Shown here in pieces: positions 2,724-55,979 of a stretch of 60,496 nt of DNA (position 1 is the stretch's first letter; the number at the start of each line of letters is the position of its first letter). This stretch comes from a virus: IMG/VR virus record IMGVR_UViG_3300033146_000395, positions 1 to 60,496 of that record. One strand, written 5' to 3'. A program made the translations under genes and the position numbers. The notes beneath the pieces are model-generated. The model did not search any database, was not told the DNA's origin, and worked only from the letters and a program-made list of their open reading frames with translations.

Positions 2724-2900
2724 ATGGGAAAGAGTAAAGAGTTATTTAATAAGAGAAGGGAAGAAAGTTTGCTTGATCATGTTGATGATGAGTTCTTCTA
2801 TGATAAGTACAAGAGAGGTCAATCAAAAGTTATATTGAGTTCAAGTATGGTCGATCATATTTTCAATAGCCCTCCGTTTAAAATCAAATCTAATGATTGA
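2724..2900 (+). CDS. Small hypothetical protein (58 aa)
   Basis: A 58-codon ORF begins at ATG 2724, shortly after the leader terminator, and ends in TGA at 2900, overlapping the next start (2893) by 8 nt. The protein is highly charged with a basic N terminus and an acidic middle (D-H-V-D-D-E-F-F-Y-D). Tight overlap with the next gene and its position directly behind the promoter support it as a real first gene of the replication operon. Function unknown. Confidence 0.6.
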   Translation: MGKSKELFNKRREESLLDHVDDEFFYDKYKRGQSKVILSSSMVDHIFNSPPFKIKSND

Positions 2901-3171
2901 AGATATATTTAAAAGAGCAGTCAAGTCTGTATCTGAATCCGTGGGATGTAACCGAAAGCAGTTGCTGTCTTCTTCCAGAAAGTTTTCTGATGTCGAAGCC
3001 AGGGATTTACTTTACTATGTTTGCTACTCTAACTTGCTGAAGCTCAAGCATATACAAAAGTGTATGGAAGATTACAATTGTGAAACGTCTCTGTCTACAA
3101 TCAGTAGAGGTGTTAACAAAGTTGAAGGCAACAGAGATCTGCGCAGTATAGCTAAGTCAATTAAGATATGA
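2893..3171 (+). CDS. DnaA domain IV-like DNA-binding protein (92 aa)
   Basis: The arrangement resembles the DNA-binding domain IV of DnaA without the AAA+ part: Q-L-L-S-S-S-R-K-F-S-D-V-E-A-R-D-L-L-Y-Y around residues 22-45, then S-L-S-T-I-S-R-G-V-N-K-V-E. The match is weaker than for the 10086 gene because the G-R-D-H-x-T-V signature is replaced. It opens the recombination/replication block and overlaps its downstream neighbour by 4 nt. I infer a sequence-specific DNA binder, for example origin recognition or transcription control. Other helix-turn-helix families remain possible. Confidence 0.5.
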   Translation: MIEDIFKRAVKSVSESVGCNRKQLLSSSRKFSDVEARDLLYYVCYSNLLKLKHIQKCMEDYNCETSLSTISRGVNKVEGNRDLRSIAKSIKI

Positions 3172-9806: not shown

Positions 9807-10089
9807 ATTAGAAGAGACGTTCCTCGAAAAGATGAGAGCATGTGACACTAGGTTAGGCATGCGTATTGCTTCGGCTATAGACAAGTTAAATCGAACTGAG
9901 ATTCCTATAGACAAGGATGAGTTTCAGATCTTCGGAGGAAGGGCTAGGTACAGGGGTGAAGATAACTTTTTTGCAGTAGAGATATGGAAGGATTCTCACT
10001 CAATTATAATTATCAACGATATATTCACAATATCTGCAGATAATTACTTAGATTTGTATAACGAAAACAAAATAATAAATCAAAAATGA
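9766..10089 (+). CDS. Hypothetical protein (107 aa)
   Basis: Unrecognised. The N-terminal 40 residues are acidic and helical, the rest beta-rich (F-Q-I-F-G-G-R-A-R-Y-R-G-E and S-I-I-I-I-N-D-I). From ATG 9766 it overlaps the nuclease gene by 41 nt; the in-frame ATG at about 9832 would remove the overlap and leave 85 residues. It ends with a 4-nt overlap on the DnaA-like gene. Confidence 0.6.
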   Translation: MDLEQRFTEELTFELEETFLEKMRACDTRLGMRIASAIDKLNRTEIPIDKDEFQIFGGRARYRGEDNFFAVEIWKDSHSIIIINDIFTISADNYLDLYNENKIINQK

Positions 10090-10610
10090 AATCAAATATA
10101 GACGCATTGCTGGATCTAACTAAAGAATATTGTAAAGCAGATCCTATGGAGAACTCTAGGAAAAGAGAAGTTGTATACGCAAGAATGATTGTGTATAAAA
10201 TACTGATAGACTTTCATAAGTTTACTTTGGCAAGAGCAGCCAGGATTTTTGGTAAGAATCACGCAACAGTTTTGCACGCCCAGAGAAGCTTCGATAGTTT
10301 GATGGAGCAGGATGAAGAATTCTCTGATGCATTCAGTTCTATTTTGAAAGAGTACTCTGATATAGTAAGTATAAGTGGACCTATAACAGACGTCTATGTT
10401 GAAAATAAAATATTAAAGTCTCGAGTAGAGGTGTTAACGAGACAACTAAAGACCACTAAAAGAGTTTATAAAATCATTGATGGTCTACCAGAGGATGCTA
10501 TGGAGCAGATGCTTTTTAAATTAAAAATTATGGCTTCAGCAGCTAAGAAAAATATTAATCCGAGGGGCTATAATGGCGAGGTTTACCAAGCTAATATGGC
10601 TTCGTATTAA
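10086..10610 (+). CDS. DnaA domain IV-like DNA-binding protein (174 aa)
   Basis: Residues about 20-75 follow the DnaA domain IV layout: R-K-R-E-V-V-Y-A-R-M-I-V-Y-K-I-L helix, a second helix A-R-A-A-R-I-F, then the signature G-K-N-H-A-T-V-L-H-A (compare G-R-D-H-T-T-V in DnaA). There is no AAA+ ATPase. The remaining 100 residues are helical and possibly oligomerising. In DnaA the signature contacts DnaA boxes, so this protein may recognise the phage origin or mimic/compete with host DnaA. It overlaps the preceding gene by 4 nt. Confidence 0.7.
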   Translation: MKSNIDALLDLTKEYCKADPMENSRKREVVYARMIVYKILIDFHKFTLARAARIFGKNHATVLHAQRSFDSLMEQDEEFSDAFSSILKEYSDIVSISGPITDVYVENKILKSRVEVLTRQLKTTKRVYKIIDGLPEDAMEQMLFKLKIMASAAKKNINPRGYNGEVYQANMASY

Positions 10611-19299: not shown

Positions 19300-20058
19300 C
19301 TATGGGTAGCTTTTTAATATATCTGATGTTATAGCAAATAACTCAACAGGTGTAGTATCATTGTTTGTCAAGGTAAAGTCACAAAAATAACCCCTCATTC
19401 CCATTGATTCAGCTACGCTGTCTTTCAAAGAAAGGATAAAAGCACTTGCTGGAGGGGGTGTTCCTGCGCTACAGTCCACCGTTATTTGTTTATTAGCTCT
19501 ATCAATTGCTGTTACAACTCCAGCCTTTGTGGGAGTTGATCCAAAAAATATAGAATCACCAACACTCAGCATAGATCCTACTTCCACTTGAAACGATATT
19601 ACTGTCGCATTAGCTGGGCCGGTAACTGTAGTAGATGTTCCTATTCCATTTGCTGATCTCATGTTAAAGTTTTCTGTGCCAGACTCTGCTCTTATAAAGC
19701 TAAAATATGCGCCTTCTTTCTTTTCAAAGTAAGAGCTTTCTATAGATCCTGTCTGAAGATCTGTAACTCCATCAAACTTCCATGGTGCATCAGACTCTAA
19801 TTCTATAGTTTTAAATAATTTAACTGTGAGCGGATCTATGTTAAATACAGATGTTATTTTAGATGCATTCGCTGGATCAGAACCAGGGGTGTCGTAGTAT
19901 GAGTTTCTTTCTTCGTTGGTGTTGTGTCTGTATACGTTTCCATTCTTGAATGTGTACAAGTAGTTGTTCATACCCTTTATAAACTCAGGATAATAACTAT
20001 AAAACGAAGGCCATCCTTTTACGTCTGGACTATATGTTACTGTGAATGTTGTTGACAT
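19300..20058 (-). CDS. Tail/structural protein downstream of the hub (252 aa)
   Basis: Unassigned beta-rich protein. N-terminal part contains W-P-S-F-Y-S-Y-Y-P-E-F and N-N-Y-L-Y-T-F-K-N-G-N-V-Y-R-H-N, a pattern I recall from structural proteins that follow the stabilisation protein in crAss-like phages. A Gly/Thr-rich beta middle domain follows (residues about 125-205). It lies 11 nt behind the hub gene, so a tail component contacting the hub is likely. Confidence 0.7.
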   Translation of the reverse strand: MSTTFTVTYSPDVKGWPSFYSYYPEFIKGMNNYLYTFKNGNVYRHNTNEERNSYYDTPGSDPANASKITSVFNIDPLTVKLFKTIELESDAPWKFDGVTDLQTGSIESSYFEKKEGAYFSFIRAESGTENFNMRSANGIGTSTTVTGPANATVISFQVEVGSMLSVGDSIFFGSTPTKAGVVTAIDRANKQITVDCSAGTPPPASAFILSLKDSVAESMGMRGYFCDFTLTNNDTTPVELFAITSDILKSYP

Positions 20059-20069
20059 ATCTTTTTATT

Positions 20070-23000
20070 TTAAGTACATGCTATGTTAGCTATAACTATA
20101 CCGTTTTCAACTTGAATCGCTCTATGAGGCGCTGGACCTATTCCACTAGCATACCACCCATCATCCATTGGGGTTACACCATTAGGATCTTTAAATACAG
20201 CTCTGTAGCCATGTCGGCCAGATGCGTTGTTATTTGGCGTGTCATAAAATAGAGGGAAGGAAGGTAGGTCTGGGCCATAACTAGGTCCTCCACTGCCTAT
20301 TTCATCCACAAAACCGTTTACACCACTAAATTTTGGTAAAGGCGTAAAGTAATATGTTTCTGTTGCTAAAGCACAAACAGACGATGTTTGCTTTACACTT
20401 GCCTGGAAAGAAGGAAGAGCTGCTGGACAGAAAGCTGCTGCCTTCCAAACAGTTGAATCACATGGGCCTAAAACCTCTAATTGAATATTTTGTATAAAAG
20501 AACTTGTCTTTGGAATAACTAGGGTGTTAAAAATCTGTTGCCCAAACTGAAAAAGCCTACCTCCTGGAGTAAAGAAAGTTGTTCCAGGGCCAGGAGCGTT
20601 AGATACATTGTAGGTGTACGACTTAGAAGTGCCGGTGTTGTTCCATGAGCTTCCAGTATATCCATCGAAATATCTATATGGTACTGTGTCTTGGTTTAGG
20701 CAGTAGCTTCTAACAGTACTTGAGCAGCTATTATTTGCTATTGAGCTTCCTGCCAGAACAAATCCTCCGCTAGGATCCGACCAAACACCTCCATTAACTG
20801 TGTATTGCTGCCTATTGTAAGTGATAGTTCTAGGGCCCCTTGTGTCTACTAGCGTATTGTACGTTTGCCCATTGTATATAGCTCTAACTCCATCTATATA
20901 CCCTCGAGGGTCAAAATGTATTATAACAGCCCCAGTGTCACTACCCACGTTTAAATTTACATTATAATACCCTTCGCCTCCACTAGGTATATTTAAGTCG
21001 TCACCGCTACAAGCTTGAGACGGCGGGCATGTTGGGCACGAAGTTAAAGCTCCTAGCACACCTTGAGCATCTAGCTCTCTATACTGTCCATTCACTCCTT
21101 TATACAAACCTGGTGCAGCAAGTGTTTGCGATGCGTCAGAATAAAGAGTGTTAGAAAGTGGAGTAGTATCAAAGTTAGTCCCTAGTGGTAAGTAATATGT
21201 GTCTGAGGACGGCGACCCGCAGCACAATACATATTCATCTGATGCATCAAAAGCTAACTCAACAGAATTAACACAGACAGGGCATGTTGTAACAACTCCG
21301 AGTGTTGAAGATGATTGCTCTCTATATGTTCCTGAAGTAGGTACTTGATAGAATCCATCAGCTGCCGGAGTTAGGTTGGTGTCTGAATACAAGTTAGTTG
21401 TAGCGTCAAAAGATGATCCATCAATATAGTAAGTTGCCGTAGGTTTTGTGTTACAACATAAGTCTGTGGCATCTACACTACTGTATTCTAAAGTAATCGC
21501 AGTAACACACGAAGGACACGCAATTGCTGACTGAAGCACCCCTCCAGAAGTTTGTTCTCTGTAAGTTGTTTGTAGGTTTTCTTTATAAAATCCAGCTGCA
21601 GCTTTTGTTGTAAGTGTGTCGTCCGTGTATATGTTAGTTGCATCAGCAAATGTAGTTCCATCTACTCTAGCCATAAACACATTGGAGGTCTGCTGAGGAT
21701 CGCAACAAACTTCTTGTGCGCTTACAGAACTGTAATCTAAATTAAGAGATACAGCGCAGGTTAAACATGTAGCTGCTGTTTGAAGTGCAGATGAAGATTG
21801 CTCTCTATATTGGATTTGTCCAACAGGCAAATAGAATCCGTCAGCAGAAGGCGTTGTTAAACTTGTGTTGTCATATAGAACTGTAGCAGAATAAAACCCT
21901 CCTTCAAGTGCGCTTACATATTTAGTATTTGGTGTGAGTGATAAGCAACAAACGTCTACCGAAGAGTCAGAATCATACACTACAGACACCCCTATATAAC
22001 AATTAGGAAGTGATTGCTGTGATCCTAAAACTCCTGATGATTGTTCTCTATAGAAAGTTCCCGCAGCCTCTTTATAGAATGCATCAGGCGCTGGGTTAGT
22101 TGCCCCTATGTCTGTAAATAATGCTGGAGCATTTGCGAATGTAGTTCCATTGGCAATGTAGAATGTTCCTGACTGTGGAGTTCCACAAGTTAAATCAATA
22201 GCCGTACTATCAAACTCTAATGTAATTGCATAATGGGTAGGCGGCGTTATACATGGACTAGTTACCGATTGAACGATACCATCTATAACTTGTATGTATG
22301 AATCTGGATTAGTTCCACCCGCGCTATCAATGGTGTAATATCCGTCAGGTAAAAGGTTTTCTCCGTTTTCATCAGTGAACACCCAGTTGGATTGTTCAGG
22401 CACAGTGTTGGTTCTAACCGATATTTGTCCAGTTCCAGGTTGGTCTGCGTTTCTAGCAAAGTAAAAAGTTTCTGTCAAAGGATTGCAGCTTCCGTCAGAC
22501 TGAACTGGAGTTGAACTAAAACTTGGTAAAGCCACAGGACAAAACGTTGCTATATCAAATACAGTTCCTGTGCTTATACCTATTGACTCTACTAGCACTG
22601 TAGAAGGGAATTGATTTGGTTTTGGCACAACTATAGTCCCCCATTCAAAATTAGTGTTTGCTGTTCTGGCGTCATCTCCTGCAGATAAGGTTGCTGTTTT
22701 AGTTGATCCTGATGGAATCCAAGCTTGTGTGCTTGGGTCATAGGAATAAAATGGCAGCTCAAAACTCGTGGTAGGTCCATTAGGGAATGGTGGGTTTGGC
22801 AAAGAATCTGTTGGATCTCCAACGATTGTGAATGAACTATCTGTAGATCCTTGCGCTGGGACGAGGTCACCTATAAATGCCATTTTATTATAATACGCCC
22901 CATCATACAAAACCCTAACACCATCAGGTATTCCTCTTGGATTAAAGTAAACAATCATAGCGCCTGTATCACCAGGGTTGCTGCCGCCTTCAAAATTCAT

Positions 23001-26000
23001 TTCAGAATAACTTTCTCCTTGTATACTTGATGTAGGAGCTGGCGTGCTTGAACATGGTACAGTCGGCAAGAAACAATCTCCAACTTCTATGACAATTCCT
23101 CGTTTTACTTTTATGTAAGTAGTGTCTGATAATATGTAAAACTGCGCAGTTAGCGTGTCGTTTAATTTTGTTGTAGCTACAAAGTCTTCAAACACATAGT
23201 TACCTACAATTGGCTTATTATTAGTGTCCTCTACAAATGAACTCCCGTTCCACGTTGCATTTCTAGCAAAGAAGAATGTATTTTCGTTTGTGTCTGGAGT
23301 ACAGTTGTTGTTTAATTGAGGAGCTGAACAATTAAAAGATGGTAGTGGTGCTGGGCAGTTCACTATCCAGTTAAACTCTCCTTCATCCACACCAAAACAA
23401 TCTACCGACACATTGTATGATCCTGTCCAAGGTAAAACCATCGTATATATCGTTGGGTCTCCACCTTTAAGATCTATGTTTGTTGGATCAACAGTAACTG
23501 TTGATAATGGAAACCCTGGATTTATATAGTTCCCTGCAGAATTTAACTTAAACGTAGGAAGGTTTGAGGTGGTTTCAGGTGTTATAAAAGGTGTTCCTAT
23601 ATATGTCGGCTCCCCTGAATTGCTATTGATGCCTACAGGGTCTCCAGAATTGTTATTATATGTAAATTGATTTTGCAGTGTTGTATTTGAGAATCCAGCT
23701 CGAACTCCAAGAGGAGTGTTTGCAGGTCTAAAATAAATCACAACAGGCTGTTTTAAAGTAGTTAGTGAAATATCTCCAATATAAGTTCCGCCCACCTGGG
23801 TTGCTGATGCTAAAGTCCCGCAGTCAACAACGCAAGTTATGCATGGCTCTTCGTCTTGTAAAATCCCATTAGATTGATATCTAGATATTGTTCCGTCAGA
23901 ATAAAATTGATCAGGAGCAAGTTGAGTTAAAGATGGATTAGTGTAAACACTAGATGCTTGAGATAAAAATGGCGCATCTATATAAAATGTTGCTTTTGAA
24001 GTACACTCGCAGCAGACGTCATTTGCGCTAACTGTAGAAGTACATAACTCTATCGCATTAACATTTCTGTAATCCCAAACTAAATATAGATACGCATGAT
24101 CAGATGGATTGTTGTATGTAAACGAAGCCTGATACTTACCTGTAGATGGGTTTGATGTTGGAGTAGCCACAGTTAAGTTTGGATCTACCAATAGAGATGT
24201 TATATCTGCAGATGTGTTTTGATATAGCGTGTTTGAAACTAAATATCTAAAGTTGTGATAGTTTTCGTCAAAAACAAAATCATCGTTAGATAATTTATTT
24301 GATATGATCGTAATCGTAGCTCCGTCTGCAGGTATAAGTCCAACCGACTCTTTTCCTGTTCCGCTCTGATATTGTGAGACTACAGGCACTGGTAGCCCAC
24401 CGAACTCAATTTGTGTGCTGGATAAGGGACTCGCAGGATTAGGCGCTAACTCCCATTGATATTGATTGTGTATGTATTTATCTTCATCTTCCGGAGAAGT
24501 TATTGCCACTTGAATAACTGTTAATTCAGCTGCATCAACGCAGTTAGGCGTTATAGTGTAGTCTCCTCTTTGAGAAGGAGTGACTCTAAATTCAGCGGTA
24601 GTGGGATAAGCAAAATCTTTACTAAAAATTACAGACGATGTTCCGGCGGGTAAACTATATGTTGTGGTACTGCCATTGTAAATAATATCTAAAGATAAAT
24701 TTACTGTAGATGTATAATCTATTGTAGCGTCCCCAATTACTTCACCAAAATTTACTATAAATGAATATGGCCTTATGTCAGAGTCTTTTATAATTATAGG
24801 GGTCCCACAACCTGATTCTGGAATAGGTATAGGAATAGGTTGATCGTTAGACCCTAAAACATATTCATTCATGTATGGATCGTAACCACCTAGCTTTTGA
24901 GTTTCAAATCCCTGTTGGAATTTATCTCTAAAGTAAGATCTCATTCCAGCTTGAGAAATAACCTCCAGCTTTTCGTTTGAATAATCAGAACCTGTTAGTT
25001 TTATAACAGCGCCTCTACTTGTGTCGGTAAAATATTTATCATACCCAAACGAAGCAAAGCTTTCTGGGTTTTGACTAATACCATATTCTTCTAATCTAGC
25101 TATCTGAGTTCCTAAAACTTCAGGCACAGATGTGATAGCTCCGCCAGCTGCTGCATCAGACAATAAGTTTTTACCGGCCAAAACATAAGAAATTCTATCT
25201 TCCTGAAGAACAAGAAGGTCTGTTTCTCTAGGCGCTAGCTTCTGAATAGATCCGTAGTTTTTCTCTAAGTCTTTAAAGTTTGCAAGTCCTAAGTTGAATT
25301 CGTTTAATCTATTTACGTTTGTCTCGTTTCTAAATACACCACTGTATGTTATGCCCGCAAACCTGTGGGCTCTCTTGTAGTCTTGCTCTGATACAGAGGT
25401 AACTCTCTCTCCTAAATAAAACTTAGCTCCTGTTTGGTTATCCAAAGCTTTATAACTTTCAACGCCATTTCCAAAAGAAAAGCAGTCAAAAAAACTTAGA
25501 GTCATTATTGCTGGTTGAGTAGCGGTCTGATTTTGATCTCCGTCTTTATTTCCAGACATGTGGAATCCCCCTGATATGTCGTAGTTTTCAGAACCTTCAT
25601 AATAAAGGTCCACATCAGCGTCCAATGGTTTTGTTTCAAAAACACACAAACTTTGAGCTAGAGTCACAATGATTTCTATCTTTATTTTTGATGACTCCTG
25701 ATATGGGCAATGTTTTATGCCACACATTCCAACTAAATACATTCTCCCTGGAGTCATTGATGGAATAAAGCCTTGGGTTGTCGGTTGAACAAATTGAAGC
25801 TGATGATTCCTTCCTCTAGTTTTTGATTCTGATATTTCATATCCCCCTGCTGTAGTTAAATCGGTAGCTAGATTCGGGTAAAAAGTTATGCTTTGATTTT
25901 GAGGATCGTTATCATCATTGCCACCTTTTACTCCGTTTTCAAAATTTATGTTTTCACCTATAACAAATTGATAAAGACTATCATAGTCGGCATTTGCGGT

Positions 26001-28454
26001 AAATATTTTTGCGTCATCACCACCTAATCCGTAATCATAATAAACACTTCCACATCTTTTTTGAAATCCAGAGTCTCTGTAAAACTTAATCCTAAACTCT
26101 ACTGTCGAACCAGCTGGTATAGCATATGCATTATAGTATGGATCAGCCGGCTGCAGATCTTGACTTTCATCAAAAACTGGTTGCCACGTAAGGGCATAAT
26201 CTCCCTTGCTAAAAGAAGAGGGGTTTTTTATAACAACAACCTCATCTAGCGGTCTGCTTGCTATAAAATCATCTGGTCTAACTTCCATATATAAACCAGA
26301 GGGCTCAGGAACTTCGTCCCCTGCAGAGGTTTCATTGTTTAAAAAATCTTTAGATTTAGCCTCTAGCGACAAAACTTGTGTTTCAACAACTCTTGATATT
26401 GTCCCCGCCAAATCTCTCTTCACAATCAATTCATCTCCGCTTTTTACTTTTGTTTGGTTCTGACCTAGCAGCTGAAAGAAAACACTACTTGAGTTAGGAT
26501 CTTTAAAAGATAAATTGCTATATATAGTCTCATAGTCTGACTGAACTCTTTTTACTACAAACTTATATTTAGTTGCCCAACTTGGAGGCAAAGAATTTAG
26601 AGTTACTTTTAATTTGTTTATTGCAGTTGAAGATGAGGGAGAAGTATAAACAGAGTTATTAGAAGAAACAAGAGCAGTTGAGCTTCTGTTGTATTCGTCC
26701 ATATAAACTATTCCAACTTCATAATCTCTGTTACTGTGCAAACTTTTTTTAGATGCTGATGAAGAAAAAAATGGGCTTACTGTAAAAACAGAAAAATATT
26801 CAAACAAATTGTAAACAGTTCCTGGAGTTGTGGTATCGTCTTTAAATCTTATAGCCGGAAATTGTAAGCTAAAAATGTTTGATCCAGGATTTGCTGTTAC
26901 CACAACACCTTCAAAAGCCTTATTAACGCCAAATTCATCTTTAACCCAAGTAAAAGTATTATCAACTCTAGGGCTATCAACCGCACACACAAATCTTTCC
27001 GTCAAACTAAACCCTTGGCTAGAAGTTCCGCACGAGGAAATTGGTTGGACGTTTGGACTCCCAAACCTTGTGGAAGCTCCTATCGCAGTTTGAAAAGCTG
27101 CAGATGAAACTAAATCAAATGCATTTGCATAATCTCTTTGTAAAGAAAATGAAAAGTTTTCATCTATAGGCGCTGTTACACTTGGACTTCCAGATGTTTC
27201 TCCTGCAAAAGTGTTGTGCTGAAACTCAAATCCTATTTGAAGTAAAGACCCCGCTTTTAAATCTAATCCGCTAAAGTCAAAGGTGACTTTACTTTGAGGT
27301 ATTGATATATTGTTCTGTCCTGTTGTAAAGTTGTATACACTGCTAGAGGATGTTTCTTCTAAGTCAGAAGCTCCAGGGTTTGTTGTAATAATTTCTGTGT
27401 CAAAATCTATGTTTATGGGAGCTCCAGATTCATTAGATATATCATATCCTTCGACGTAATTACCAAACATTAGTCGGTTGCCCATCAAAACTAAAGATTT
27501 AGCTGTCAATGGAACATTGTCGTAAAGCCTTAATAACTCCGATTCTGTAAGCGTAGTATATATTTTTCCGTTATTAAAGGTAAGTGACTGTGTAGAGTTG
27601 CTTGGATATCCCAAACCTTCTTTATCTACCTTTTCAATAACGTTTATGACATTGGATTCAGGAATTTTAAAACACACATCTACACCAACAACATCTTGAG
27701 AACCTGTGTTAAAAGAAACGTTTACACTATTGTAGATGTTTTTCATTCCCTCATTGTTCATGTCTGAAAGATTGAACCTGAATTGTGAAGGCTCAAAGGC
27801 AACATCTGTAAATTGGGAAAGGGCAGAATATTCGCCGTCAACATATCTATATCTATAGGCAAAAGAAACGAACCTAGTCTCTAAATAATTTTCTTCACCC
27901 GGTGAATTTCTTAGTGATACAGAAGGCGCTTCTGATGGAGGCTTAACTATTAAGTTAATCTCTTCATCTGTAATCTTATCCACCCCATTCTCAGGAAAAT
28001 CATAATCTCTAGATACATTTATTTTTCTTGGCGGATTTAAGTTGTCTGTAAAGTATAACAGATCTTCGATCTTATCTACGCCAGTGATTAAGTGTTTGTC
28101 ACTAAAGTTTAATACAGTATAACTTTCTATATGTTTTGTTAGGTTATTATTTCTAACGTCGTATGATAATATTAAGTCGCCTATATCAGACGTTACAAAC
28201 CAATATATTGTGTCGTTCTCAGAATCAGCATAAGCCCCGATACAGGTTGGGTTCTGTCCACTTAAGCTTTGGCCATCAAAGTTAATATCAGTAAGTCTGG
28301 TGTTACCTTTTGAGTTTTCTACAGCTCCAATCTCAGATCCCTCTGTAGATCCGAGCCTAACATTCATTGCGTCAATGTACTCTCCAGGACGAATCAATCG
28401 TTCATCCACAGACTTATTCATTACGCCTCTAACAAAATTCTGAGTTGTCTTCAA
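20070..28454 (-). CDS. Tail hub/stabilisation protein (P22 gp10-like, crAss type) with giant Cys-rich adhesin extension, 2794 aa
   Basis: The N terminus (N-F-V-R-G-V-M-N-K-S-V-D-E-R-L-I then G-E-Y-I-D-A-M-N-V-R and G-S-E-I-G-A-V-E-N) is the signature of the crAss-like stabilisation protein, related to P22 gp10, which forms the tail hub or nozzle. This core fills roughly residues 1-1200. The remaining 1600 residues are beta-rich and modular: three copies of an F-x-P-R-G/F-R-P-A-N module around an x-D-G-V-R-x-x-Y-x-G motif, F-C-P-A-x-L-P-S-F linkers, and about five tandem 80-residue repeats near 2090-2480 with Y-R-E-Q-S-S, C-x-x-C and C-C. The extension probably carries receptor-binding or surface-exposed domains. 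It is the longest gene in the genome. Confidence 0.8.
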   Translation of the reverse strand: MKTTQNFVRGVMNKSVDERLIRPGEYIDAMNVRLGSTEGSEIGAVENSKGNTRLTDINFDGQSLSGQNPTCIGAYADSENDTIYWFVTSDIGDLILSYDVRNNNLTKHIESYTVLNFSDKHLITGVDKIEDLLYFTDNLNPPRKINVSRDYDFPENGVDKITDEEINLIVKPPSEAPSVSLRNSPGEENYLETRFVSFAYRYRYVDGEYSALSQFTDVAFEPSQFRFNLSDMNNEGMKNIYNSVNVSFNTGSQDVVGVDVCFKIPESNVINVIEKVDKEGLGYPSNSTQSLTFNNGKIYTTLTESELLRLYDNVPLTAKSLVLMGNRLMFGNYVEGYDISNESGAPINIDFDTEIITTNPGASDLEETSSSSVYNFTTGQNNISIPQSKVTFDFSGLDLKAGSLLQIGFEFQHNTFAGETSGSPSVTAPIDENFSFSLQRDYANAFDLVSSAAFQTAIGASTRFGSPNVQPISSCGTSSQGFSLTERFVCAVDSPRVDNTFTWVKDEFGVNKAFEGVVVTANPGSNIFSLQFPAIRFKDDTTTPGTVYNLFEYFSVFTVSPFFSSSASKKSLHSNRDYEVGIVYMDEYNRSSTALVSSNNSVYTSPSSSTAINKLKVTLNSLPPSWATKYKFVVKRVQSDYETIYSNLSFKDPNSSSVFFQLLGQNQTKVKSGDELIVKRDLAGTISRVVETQVLSLEAKSKDFLNNETSAGDEVPEPSGLYMEVRPDDFIASRPLDEVVVIKNPSSFSKGDYALTWQPVFDESQDLQPADPYYNAYAIPAGSTVEFRIKFYRDSGFQKRCGSVYYDYGLGGDDAKIFTANADYDSLYQFVIGENINFENGVKGGNDDNDPQNQSITFYPNLATDLTTAGGYEISESKTRGRNHQLQFVQPTTQGFIPSMTPGRMYLVGMCGIKHCPYQESSKIKIEIIVTLAQSLCVFETKPLDADVDLYYEGSENYDISGGFHMSGNKDGDQNQTATQPAIMTLSFFDCFSFGNGVESYKALDNQTGAKFYLGERVTSVSEQDYKRAHRFAGITYSGVFRNETNVNRLNEFNLGLANFKDLEKNYGSIQKLAPRETDLLVLQEDRISYVLAGKNLLSDAAAGGAITSVPEVLGTQIARLEEYGISQNPESFASFGYDKYFTDTSRGAVIKLTGSDYSNEKLEVISQAGMRSYFRDKFQQGFETQKLGGYDPYMNEYVLGSNDQPIPIPIPESGCGTPIIIKDSDIRPYSFIVNFGEVIGDATIDYTSTVNLSLDIIYNGSTTTYSLPAGTSSVIFSKDFAYPTTAEFRVTPSQRGDYTITPNCVDAAELTVIQVAITSPEDEDKYIHNQYQWELAPNPASPLSSTQIEFGGLPVPVVSQYQSGTGKESVGLIPADGATITIISNKLSNDDFVFDENYHNFRYLVSNTLYQNTSADITSLLVDPNLTVATPTSNPSTGKYQASFTYNNPSDHAYLYLVWDYRNVNAIELCTSTVSANDVCCECTSKATFYIDAPFLSQASSVYTNPSLTQLAPDQFYSDGTISRYQSNGILQDEEPCITCVVDCGTLASATQVGGTYIGDISLTTLKQPVVIYFRPANTPLGVRAGFSNTTLQNQFTYNNNSGDPVGINSNSGEPTYIGTPFITPETTSNLPTFKLNSAGNYINPGFPLSTVTVDPTNIDLKGGDPTIYTMVLPWTGSYNVSVDCFGVDEGEFNWIVNCPAPLPSFNCSAPQLNNNCTPDTNENTFFFARNATWNGSSFVEDTNNKPIVGNYVFEDFVATTKLNDTLTAQFYILSDTTYIKVKRGIVIEVGDCFLPTVPCSSTPAPTSSIQGESYSEMNFEGGSNPGDTGAMIVYFNPRGIPDGVRVLYDGAYYNKMAFIGDLVPAQGSTDSSFTIVGDPTDSLPNPPFPNGPTTSFELPFYSYDPSTQAWIPSGSTKTATLSAGDDARTANTNFEWGTIVVPKPNQFPSTVLVESIGISTGTVFDIATFCPVALPSFSSTPVQSDGSCNPLTETFYFARNADQPGTGQISVRTNTVPEQSNWVFTDENGENLLPDGYYTIDSAGGTNPDSYIQVIDGIVQSVTSPCITPPTHYAITLEFDSTAIDLTCGTPQSGTFYIANGTTFANAPALFTDIGATNPAPDAFYKEAAGTFYREQSSGVLGSQQSLPNCYIGVSVVYDSDSSVDVCCLSLTPNTKYVSALEGGFYSATVLYDNTSLTTPSADGFYLPVGQIQYREQSSSALQTAATCLTCAVSLNLDYSSVSAQEVCCDPQQTSNVFMARVDGTTFADATNIYTDDTLTTKAAAGFYKENLQTTYREQTSGGVLQSAIACPSCVTAITLEYSSVDATDLCCNTKPTATYYIDGSSFDATTNLYSDTNLTPAADGFYQVPTSGTYREQSSSTLGVVTTCPVCVNSVELAFDASDEYVLCCGSPSSDTYYLPLGTNFDTTPLSNTLYSDASQTLAAPGLYKGVNGQYRELDAQGVLGALTSCPTCPPSQACSGDDLNIPSGGEGYYNVNLNVGSDTGAVIIHFDPRGYIDGVRAIYNGQTYNTLVDTRGPRTITYNRQQYTVNGGVWSDPSGGFVLAGSSIANNSCSSTVRSYCLNQDTVPYRYFDGYTGSSWNNTGTSKSYTYNVSNAPGPGTTFFTPGGRLFQFGQQIFNTLVIPKTSSFIQNIQLEVLGPCDSTVWKAAAFCPAALPSFQASVKQTSSVCALATETYYFTPLPKFSGVNGFVDEIGSGGPSYGPDLPSFPLFYDTPNNNASGRHGYRAVFKDPNGVTPMDDGWYASGIGPAPHRAIQVENGIVIANIACT
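20990..22260 (-). repeat. Tandem 80-residue cysteine repeats inside the hub gene
   Basis: A tctct-containing motif encoding the Y-R-E or Y-R-E-Q-S box recurs at about 21075, 21318, 21557, 21799 and 22041, a period near 240 bp. Each unit also has a C-x-x-C after the Y-R-E box and a C-C or paired Cys before the next unit. Copies have diverged at DNA level, so recent expansion is not implied. Confidence 0.7.
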
Positions 28455-52269: not shown

Positions 52270-52743
52270 ATGAAATTTGACAAGAAGATACGCAAAAACT
52301 ACGACAGAAAACCGCCTGGGTATGATTACATGAAGTATTACAGGGTGGTTAGGCACTGGGTAACGGCTAAGTATGGAGTTTCTACAGCTGATCTAGAGAT
52401 GATGTTCTTTCTATATAGCGAACAAATATTCAGCAGAACTAAGTTCAACGAGTTTGAAGAGCTCATGTCTTGGGATGACAAAAGATTCAAAAGACTTGTA
52501 AGGGAAGGTTGGATTGGCATATGGAGGAAGAGGCAGGGATCTCAGAAGACATTGTACGAACTATCATACAAAGGGAAGCGATTGATCACTACGGTATACA
52601 AGAAACTGAACGGTGAGGAAATATCTGAGCAGAAGAACCCCATGTTTTTAAAAGGAGCCTCCTACTCAGATCGGGTTTACAGGAACATGATCGTTGAGAT
52701 GAACAAAGCTATAAGACAACAACGACGTCTTTCTCGAGAATGA
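52270..52743 (+). CDS. Putative winged-helix regulator, lone plus-strand gene in the late region (157 aa)
   Basis: Start ATG 52270 is preferred over an upstream ATG at 52171 that would run through the late promoter. The protein is basic, with Y-Y-R-V-V-R-H-W-V-T-A-K-Y-G-V-S-T-A-D-L-E-M-M-F-F-L-Y and a wing-like W-I-G-I-W-R-K-R-Q-G-S-Q-K-T-L-Y-E-L-S-Y-K-G-K-R-L, the order of MarR-type winged helix domains. It diverges from the late operon and its last 35 nt overlap GroES antisense. I infer a late-gene regulator. Family is not certain. Confidence 0.6.
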   Translation: MKFDKKIRKNYDRKPPGYDYMKYYRVVRHWVTAKYGVSTADLEMMFFLYSEQIFSRTKFNEFEELMSWDDKRFKRLVREGWIGIWRKRQGSQKTLYELSYKGKRLITTVYKKLNGEEISEQKNPMFLKGASYSDRVYRNMIVEMNKAIRQQRRLSRE

Positions 52744-54860: not shown

Positions 54861-55043
54861 CTATGAGAGTAAATCGTTACGCATTTTAGAACGCATTTCT
54901 GCTAGTTCAATTCCGTCTGCAATATCTTTTACGGCTTTAGAAGCCTTCATCTGACGTCGATACATACTTGCCTCCTCGATGCCTGAGATTCCATCAGGTC
55001 TTAGGTTGATTAGTCTTCCGTTTTTTACAATTAGTCCGTCCAT
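54861..55043 (-). CDS. Small hypothetical protein (60 aa)
   Basis: Short beta start (D-G-L-I-V-K-N-G-R-L-I-N-L-R-P-D-G) then charged helices (M-K-A-S-K-A-V-K-D-I-A-D-G-I-E-L-A-E-M-R). Ends before a good terminator and follows another small minus gene by 2 nt. Function unknown. Confidence 0.6.
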   Translation of the reverse strand: MDGLIVKNGRLINLRPDGISGIEEASMYRRQMKASKAVKDIADGIELAEMRSKMRNDLLS

Positions 55044-55045
55044 GT

Positions 55046-55189
55046 TTATTTATATAATAGGTTAATTTCTAGTAATCCTAAATGGATCGAGAACTCACTA
55101 TAGTCGTACTTATCGTCCTTATGGTAGTATGACCATCCGATAGCAAAACCTGTGTGTATTCTGTTTCGGAGTTCAATGATCCAATCCAT
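55046..55189 (-). CDS. Small hypothetical protein (47 aa), possibly leaderless
   Basis: A 47-codon frame with H-T-G-F-A-I-G-W-S-Y-Y, a D-D-K-Y-D-Y-S-E-F-S-I-H-L-G-L-L segment and a beta-rich end. I recall Y-S-E-x-x-I-H-L-G-L as recurrent in small phage proteins. The TATCTTTG box ends only 3 nt before the ATG, so the mRNA would be leaderless or nearly so. Stop is 2 nt before the next gene. Confidence 0.6.
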   Translation of the reverse strand: MDWIIELRNRIHTGFAIGWSYYHKDDKYDYSEFSIHLGLLEINLLYK

Positions 55190-55192
55190 ATA

Positions 55193-55200
55193 CAAAGATA
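55193..55200 (-). promoter_or_regulatory. Minus-strand TATCTTTG box before the leftmost minus genes
   Basis: Same TTATCTTTGTA core as at 30178 and 46969; here directly before ATG 55189. No -33 TTTG upstream. Confidence 0.5.
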
Positions 55201-55332
55201 AGGTTTTTTCAGATACCCGTATTGATTGGGTAATATATATATTCTACGTTCGGTGTGTCAATTCGGAAATCGTTTTTTTTTCGTGGGGGGGTGTGTTTTT
55301 TCGTTTGGTTTGTTCTGATTTTTTGGCGTTTT

Positions 55333-55402
55333 TACGCGTGTGTGCGTGTGCGTATGCGTGTATGTGTGTGCGTGTGTGTACGAGCGTGCGTGTATGCGTG
55401 CG
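55333..55402. repeat. 70-bp alternating pyrimidine-purine tract (Z-DNA-prone)
   Basis: From 55333 to 55382 every step alternates pyrimidine-purine (CG, TG and TA steps such as GTGTGCGTGTGCG); after a three-purine break at 55382-55384 it resumes to 55402. CG/CA-TG steps are the sequences that most readily adopt Z-DNA under negative supercoiling. Confidence 0.8.
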
Positions 55403-55527
55403 AAGTTTCAAACCCTTTTGCCCTTCCCTCGTTTACATCATCACCCCACCGAACGAAAAGAAAAGAAACAAAAAACCCCCTAATTTCCTTCGATAAACTA
55501 AAAAAAAGTGAAAAAAAATTTGCGTAG

Positions 55528-55535
55528 TATTTTTG
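55528..55535 (+). promoter_or_regulatory. TATTTTTG box before the first plus-strand gene
   Basis: TAnnTTTG match (TATTTTTG) 37 nt before ATG 55572. TTTG at 55519 is too near to be a -33 element, so this is only a half-site. Confidence 0.35.
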
Positions 55536-55571
55536 CATTATGTACTTTTGGCGATATAAGTTCTTTTTTTT

Positions 55572-55979
55572 ATGAATACAAAAGCGAAAAACAGCGCAGT
55601 TGTGAACAATAGTAGCAACGCGCCAAAATGGTTTGTTAATGCTCAAAACGTCATTCAAACACTAAACGCAAAAGATGAGCGTACAGCGTTCGATAGCGTT
55701 CGACTAGCAAATCAATTATTCAAAATTGAAAATCGTAGCTTAAGCAAAGTTTACAACGAACTTAAAAATTCGTCTGGGGATATTGCAAAAGCAGTTGCCG
55801 AAGTTTTAGGCAAATCAAGTTTCCCAACCTTTAAAGCGTTCAAAAACGAAGCGAAGCAAGGGCAACAATTTTTTTCAATTTACGCAGGGTTGATGATGTT
55901 AAAAAAATTCAACAAATCAGCCAAACAAGTGGCAAGGGCAAAGCGACAAAGCAAAGCCCAAGCCCAAAAAATAGCATAG
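55572..55979 (+). CDS. Basic hypothetical protein (135 aa), first plus-strand gene
   Basis: A Lys/Ala/Asn-rich helical protein with a Lys/Gln/Arg tail (V-A-R-A-K-R-Q-S-K-A-Q-A-Q-K). No family recognised. Codon usage uses gcg, cgt and agc more than neighbours, and the start region TTTTTTTTATG is unlike others. It ends in TAG with two terminator-like hairpins directly after. Could be an early DNA-binding or host-takeover protein; inference. Confidence 0.6.
   Translation: MNTKAKNSAVVNNSSNAPKWFVNAQNVIQTLNAKDERTAFDSVRLANQLFKIENRSLSKVYNELKNSSGDIAKAVAEVLGKSSFPTFKAFKNEAKQGQQFFSIYAGLMMLKKFNKSAKQVARAKRQSKAQAQKIA

Follow-up and report, generated by a model that had tools for sequence, protein, structure and literature searches.

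A fast-evolving GC-rich tract beside a conserved noncoding core at the gene-arm divergence point of Pervagoviridae-related flavobacterial phages

The pyrimidine–purine alternating tract at 55333–55402 of the window (the whole stretch of DNA analyzed, an uncultured virus record of 60,496 bp without end repeats) can be explained as one case of a wider pattern of a conserved core with a GC-rich spacer. The phages that carry this pattern at the single point where their two gene arms diverge are flavobacterial phages related to the Pervagoviridae. Tentatively, and with slightly less than even confidence, we read the tract as a fast-evolving, usually repetitive GC-rich spacer lying 5′ of the conserved core and a promoter, the whole forming a control region that would combine an origin or terminus with early-promoter control. 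The site offers a clear candidate origin or genome end for an abundant and little-studied group of phages, and it is a noncoding locus where a physical property of the DNA is apparently retained despite very rapid turnover of the sequence.

Results

The 70-nt GC-rich tract of the window alternates strictly between pyrimidine and purine (YR) over 55333–55382 (50 nt) and 55384–55402 (19 nt), the two runs being split by the GAG at 55382–55384. These are the longest YR runs in the 60,496 bp, the third longest being 15 nt, and by chance about 3e-12 runs of 50 nt or longer would be expected. A 46-nt YR pattern was found in the tract only and matched none of 100 dinucleotide-preserving shuffles. We scored Z-proneness with a two-state supercoiling calculation using the B–Z energies of the Z-Hunt literature. 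Of all sites in the window, the tract had the lowest threshold, with the B–Z transition at sigma of about −0.044 in a 4-kb domain, versus −0.0535 for the next independent site and a median of −0.066. The original prediction had described the alternation as very unusual and Z-prone and had placed it where the gene arms diverge; all three statements were borne out. The frames within the tract are only mechanically open, and we rejected it as coding sequence; we also rejected a simple microsatellite, as the periods of 6, 18, and 26 are imperfect (75–78% match) and the words are mixed. On the plus-arm side the tract is flanked by a C/A-rich low-complexity stretch (55403–55500).

The ORF map of the window shows the strand divergence at 55.2–55.6 kb, with minus-strand ORFs to the left and a plus-strand ORF from 55572. 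Promoter-like sites of the Bacteroidota type, for which the consensus is well established, flank the tract and point outward on both sides. The leftward promoter has the −7 box TATCTTTG (55193–55200, minus strand), part of a TTATcTTTG pattern conserved in the alignment of the relatives, and the rightward promoter-like site reads TTTG-N20-TACTTTTG (55519–55550, plus strand). A small ORF of 47 aa (55046–55189, minus strand) begins a few bases past the −7 box and is possibly a leaderless early transcript; ORFs resembling it come after the promoter in some relatives. It is followed by a 60-aa ORF (54861–55043, minus strand; MDGLIVKNGRLINLRPDG...) that had no Pfam match and whose homologues lie between the core and groEL in relatives, and then by the first large gene of the minus arm, the phage groEL (52953–54539, minus strand). 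The first gene of the plus arm is a 135-aa ORF (55572–55979, plus strand).

By terminase identity, the window phage is closest to MW202828 from Manatee Spring (71%), followed by the Flavobacterium elemo phages (46%) and Cellulophaga phages such as phi38:1 of the Pervagoviridae (about 38%). We found no close relatives of the window in which the conservation of its own tract could be assessed; the search for relatives of the 135-aa ORF gave no match, and the best GroEL was 64% identical. The phage encodes GroEL, primase/helicase, DnaA-C-like proteins, and a Sak annealing protein. The two DnaA-C-like proteins (10086–10610 and 2893–3171) match the DnaA C-terminal DNA-binding domain below the Pfam cut-off and lack the other DnaA domains.

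Adjoining the tract, and seen in 46 distinct relatives, is a conserved noncoding core. In the window it covers 55263–55330 (minus strand) and consists, in the groEL sense, of AACGCCAAAAAATC (55317–55330), CACACCCCCCCACG (55282–55295), and an A9 run (55273–55281). The layout in the relatives, on the groEL strand, is AACGCCAAAAAATC, about 20 nt, ACCCCCACCCC, and an A-run, and this is followed by TATATA-CC, the TTATcTTTG promoter, small ORFs, and then groEL. A scan with the core pattern matched 45 viral stretches, about 38 of which represent this module, and the reversed-pattern control gave 0 matches; the core was single copy in 12 of 14 related records. The 96 matches in bacterial genomes came from unrelated taxa, and none was convincing as a bacterial or prophage copy, the A-run following the core motif in just 1 of them. 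Our search of the open literature found no paper on the core/tract element. The core is still recognizable, in degenerate form, at the divergence of phi38:1 (about 34345; AACCCCACCCCGTTAAAAAAATCGG) and of elemoA (Elemovirus; about 19885–19960). Unlike the window with its alternating tract, phi38:1 has G-rich repeats that are word-like only, and elemoA has no GC-rich alternating or repetitive tract.

Most relatives carry a GC-rich tract directly 5′ of the core, often built of short repeated words that vary by lineage (GT/CG alternation, GGGACGT, GGAACGG, GGGGTGTAG, GAGC, CAGG, GGAAGG, CCACCA, and others). The most widespread property of the tract is its GC-richness: the mean GC content was 0.59, and 37 of 45 tracts were within the top 5% of their own contig. 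The corresponding counts were 17/45 for low complexity, 23/45 for the G4Hunter score, and 14/45 for the YR run. In 10 of 13 genomes, the tract was the top GC-rich low-complexity 100-nt window genome-wide. Repetition is thus common, and the tracts of L284, L298, L302, L309, and L314 are not low-complexity. As elemoA has no repetitive tract and several lineages have tracts of this latter kind, the tract is not essential.

Alternation is the minority form. It is strict in about 7 of 46 lineages, and a YR run of at least 20 nt is found in only 6 of 45 tracts. Strict runs reach 51–54 nt at the same site in L130, L144/L145, and L304 and are shorter in L082, L259, and MW202828; the alternation is of GT/CG type in L130, L144/L145, and L259, of CA type in L082 and L304, and mixed with GACGC in MW202828. 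The alternating lineages are spread over the GroEL tree, indicating that alternation arose repeatedly: the label requires 6 changes, of which well-supported branches force at least 5, and is no more clustered or retained than shuffled labels. Z-forming alternation as the selected feature was not upheld. The refuting condition that the original prediction had named, variation to non-alternating sequence in relatives, largely applies, since relatives have non-alternating GC-rich words at this site.

The turnover of the tract is seen most directly in close pairs, where tract identity was 18–66% beside flanks identical at 90–100%. In L148/L151, which have identical GroEL, the tract was 18–66% identical versus 92–100% downstream; in L103/L108 it was 64% identical within flanks mostly at 90–100%, and in L128/L135 the identity was 52%. 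The sisters L082/L085 differ in their tract words and also in which strand is G-rich. No identity dip was seen at the site in L298/L302, a pair without a repetitive tract. The contigs of many relatives stop at the boundary between tract and core, as can result from repeats or strain polymorphism.

The detrended GC-skew minimum was at most 1 kb from the core in all 13 genomes studied, and on this ground the earlier suggestion that the tract is part of an origin is plausible. In elemoA, one of these genomes, groEL has been relocated and the minimum lies about 100 nt from the core. Because gene direction also switches at this site, we tested a conserved gene oriented against its arm. Its coding-strand skew at 4-fold sites was −0.37, in comparison with −0.035 ± 0.071 for a null computed from arm-oriented genes (0/2000). 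The 4-fold skew of groEL was +0.21 when arm-oriented and −0.08 when counter-oriented in elemoA (24 informative sites). These comparisons, which come mainly from one gene family, favor an arm-wise, replication-like component of the skew starting at the core; the strand-composition switch present there is partly confounded with gene direction. The counter-oriented gene (DYLKYWRVIRYY...DLDMLLFLYSE) is found inside the groEL arm, at about 52270–52743 (plus strand) of the window and about 2.2–6.7 kb to the groEL side of the core in 12 related genomes, and is annotated as a repressor in MW202828.

The site shares with theta-type origins the skew minimum, the divergence point, and replication-type phage genes. 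It differs from them in its initiator sites: we rejected a DnaA-box cluster, none being near the core, and found no shared iterons clustering at the core. A further difference is the confounding of the skew with transcription.

Discussion

The position of the site, the core, the GC-richness and hypervariability of the tract, and the coincidence with the GC-skew minimum are direct observations. From these we infer a role of the site as origin or terminus and a physical role of the tract. The core would be the protein-recognized part of a combined origin (or terminus) and early-promoter control region, and one region may serve as both origin and terminus. The letters of the tract would change freely via slippage and repeat turnover while GC-richness is retained, the tract acting by bulk physics, as a stiff and hard-to-melt block, and not through recognition of its letters. 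It might adopt non-B forms when the DNA between the diverging promoters is negatively supercoiled; in the window, the form would be Z-DNA. A supercoil-absorbing role is possible, though this is not the conserved property. That the site is a control element of the whole family (origin or terminus), in which a conserved core is coupled to a GC-rich tract constrained physically but not in its sequence, we consider unlikely. In such an element the letters of the tract would differ between near-identical strains with the bulk property preserved, and lineages would use Z-, G4-, or other non-B-prone solutions at one site. Several observations weigh against the preferred reading of a spacer in a control region. 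GC skew also tracks transcription direction, the gene arms are unequal at about 72:28, DnaA boxes are not clustered at the core, and the tract is absent or nonrepetitive in several lineages. Its turnover could also be produced by neutral slippage alone. A slippage-prone intergenic spacer that gathers simple repeats, with the tract itself functionless, is a serious if somewhat unlikely alternative: the very fast turnover, the switch of the G-rich strand in L082/L085, and the lineages without the tract would all follow from it, but the GC-richness of the tract in AT-rich genomes would not, and neutral slippage does not predict that the top GC-rich repetitive window of most genomes should fall at one site. 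The strict alternation could instead have been kept by selection as a switch, flipping to the left-handed form under negative supercoiling and so buffering or coupling the divergent promoters. Z-DNA-forming (GT)n/(CG)n tracts near promoters have in common with the window's tract the strict YR alternation, the low predicted B–Z threshold, and a place between divergent promoters. That no site in the window is more Z-prone than the tract and that long YR runs arose repeatedly at this place both point the same way. However, the alternation of the phage tract is not conserved, its Z form is a prediction, the majority of relatives are non-alternating, and the label behaves on the tree like a shuffled one; we regard a selected Z-DNA switch as improbable.

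A different role for the same elements, which we hold to be on the unlikely side, is that the site is a physical genome end. The core would then serve terminase action or concatemer processing close to a direct terminal repeat, and the tract would correspond to the short-repeat arrays, SRL and SRR, that adjoin terminal repeats of the T7 type. Imperfect short repeats beside a conserved terminal element would be common to both systems. Here the terminus is putative, and the tract words, unlike the T7 arrays, are lineage-specific and differ between members of a close pair. In Tenacibaculum phage Gundel (32% terminase identity), a 322-bp terminal repeat (NC_062747, 1–322 and 78512–78833; L461, L462) lies exactly in the divergence gap, and a low-complexity stretch rich in GT comes after it, at about +370 to +515. 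Gundel is the nearest isolate whose genome ends have been called, and the call is a PhageTerm prediction (PMC8776804). By analogy, genomes of the wider group may end at the divergence point. Maribacter phage Panino has a linear record that likewise terminates in its divergence gap, with a CCCCCACC element about 190 nt before the end, although the Panino paper contains no genome-end analysis. The similarity between the edge of the Gundel repeat and the core is too weak for clear homology, which we rejected (rank 8 of 2612 windows with the consensus and 78 of 2612 with the window's core). The numerous contigs ending at the tract/core boundary are as expected of a terminus, but repeats or strain variation could also account for them, and where the contigs of relatives are near-complete, their ends mostly lie far from the core. 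Those same contig ends, and the metagenomic origin of the window, could also point to a short-read assembly artefact in a low-complexity region. Many contigs that were assembled separately have comparable tracts at this site, and an identical 54-nt run was assembled in both L144 and L145 (possibly one sample), making an artefact very improbable.

On the far side of the tract, some relatives have repeated, operator-like palindromes, TTATTGTA-N5-TACAATAA and GTGTC-N6-GACAC (L145, 3595–3780; L130, 40–230; MW202828, near 43.7–44.6 kb). These are lineage-specific and none is found in the window, and we rejected a shared palindromic operator. Within the structural arm of the window, the local GC skew over a 2794-aa ORF (20070–28454, minus strand) departs from that of the rest of the arm, being positive at 21–25 kb.
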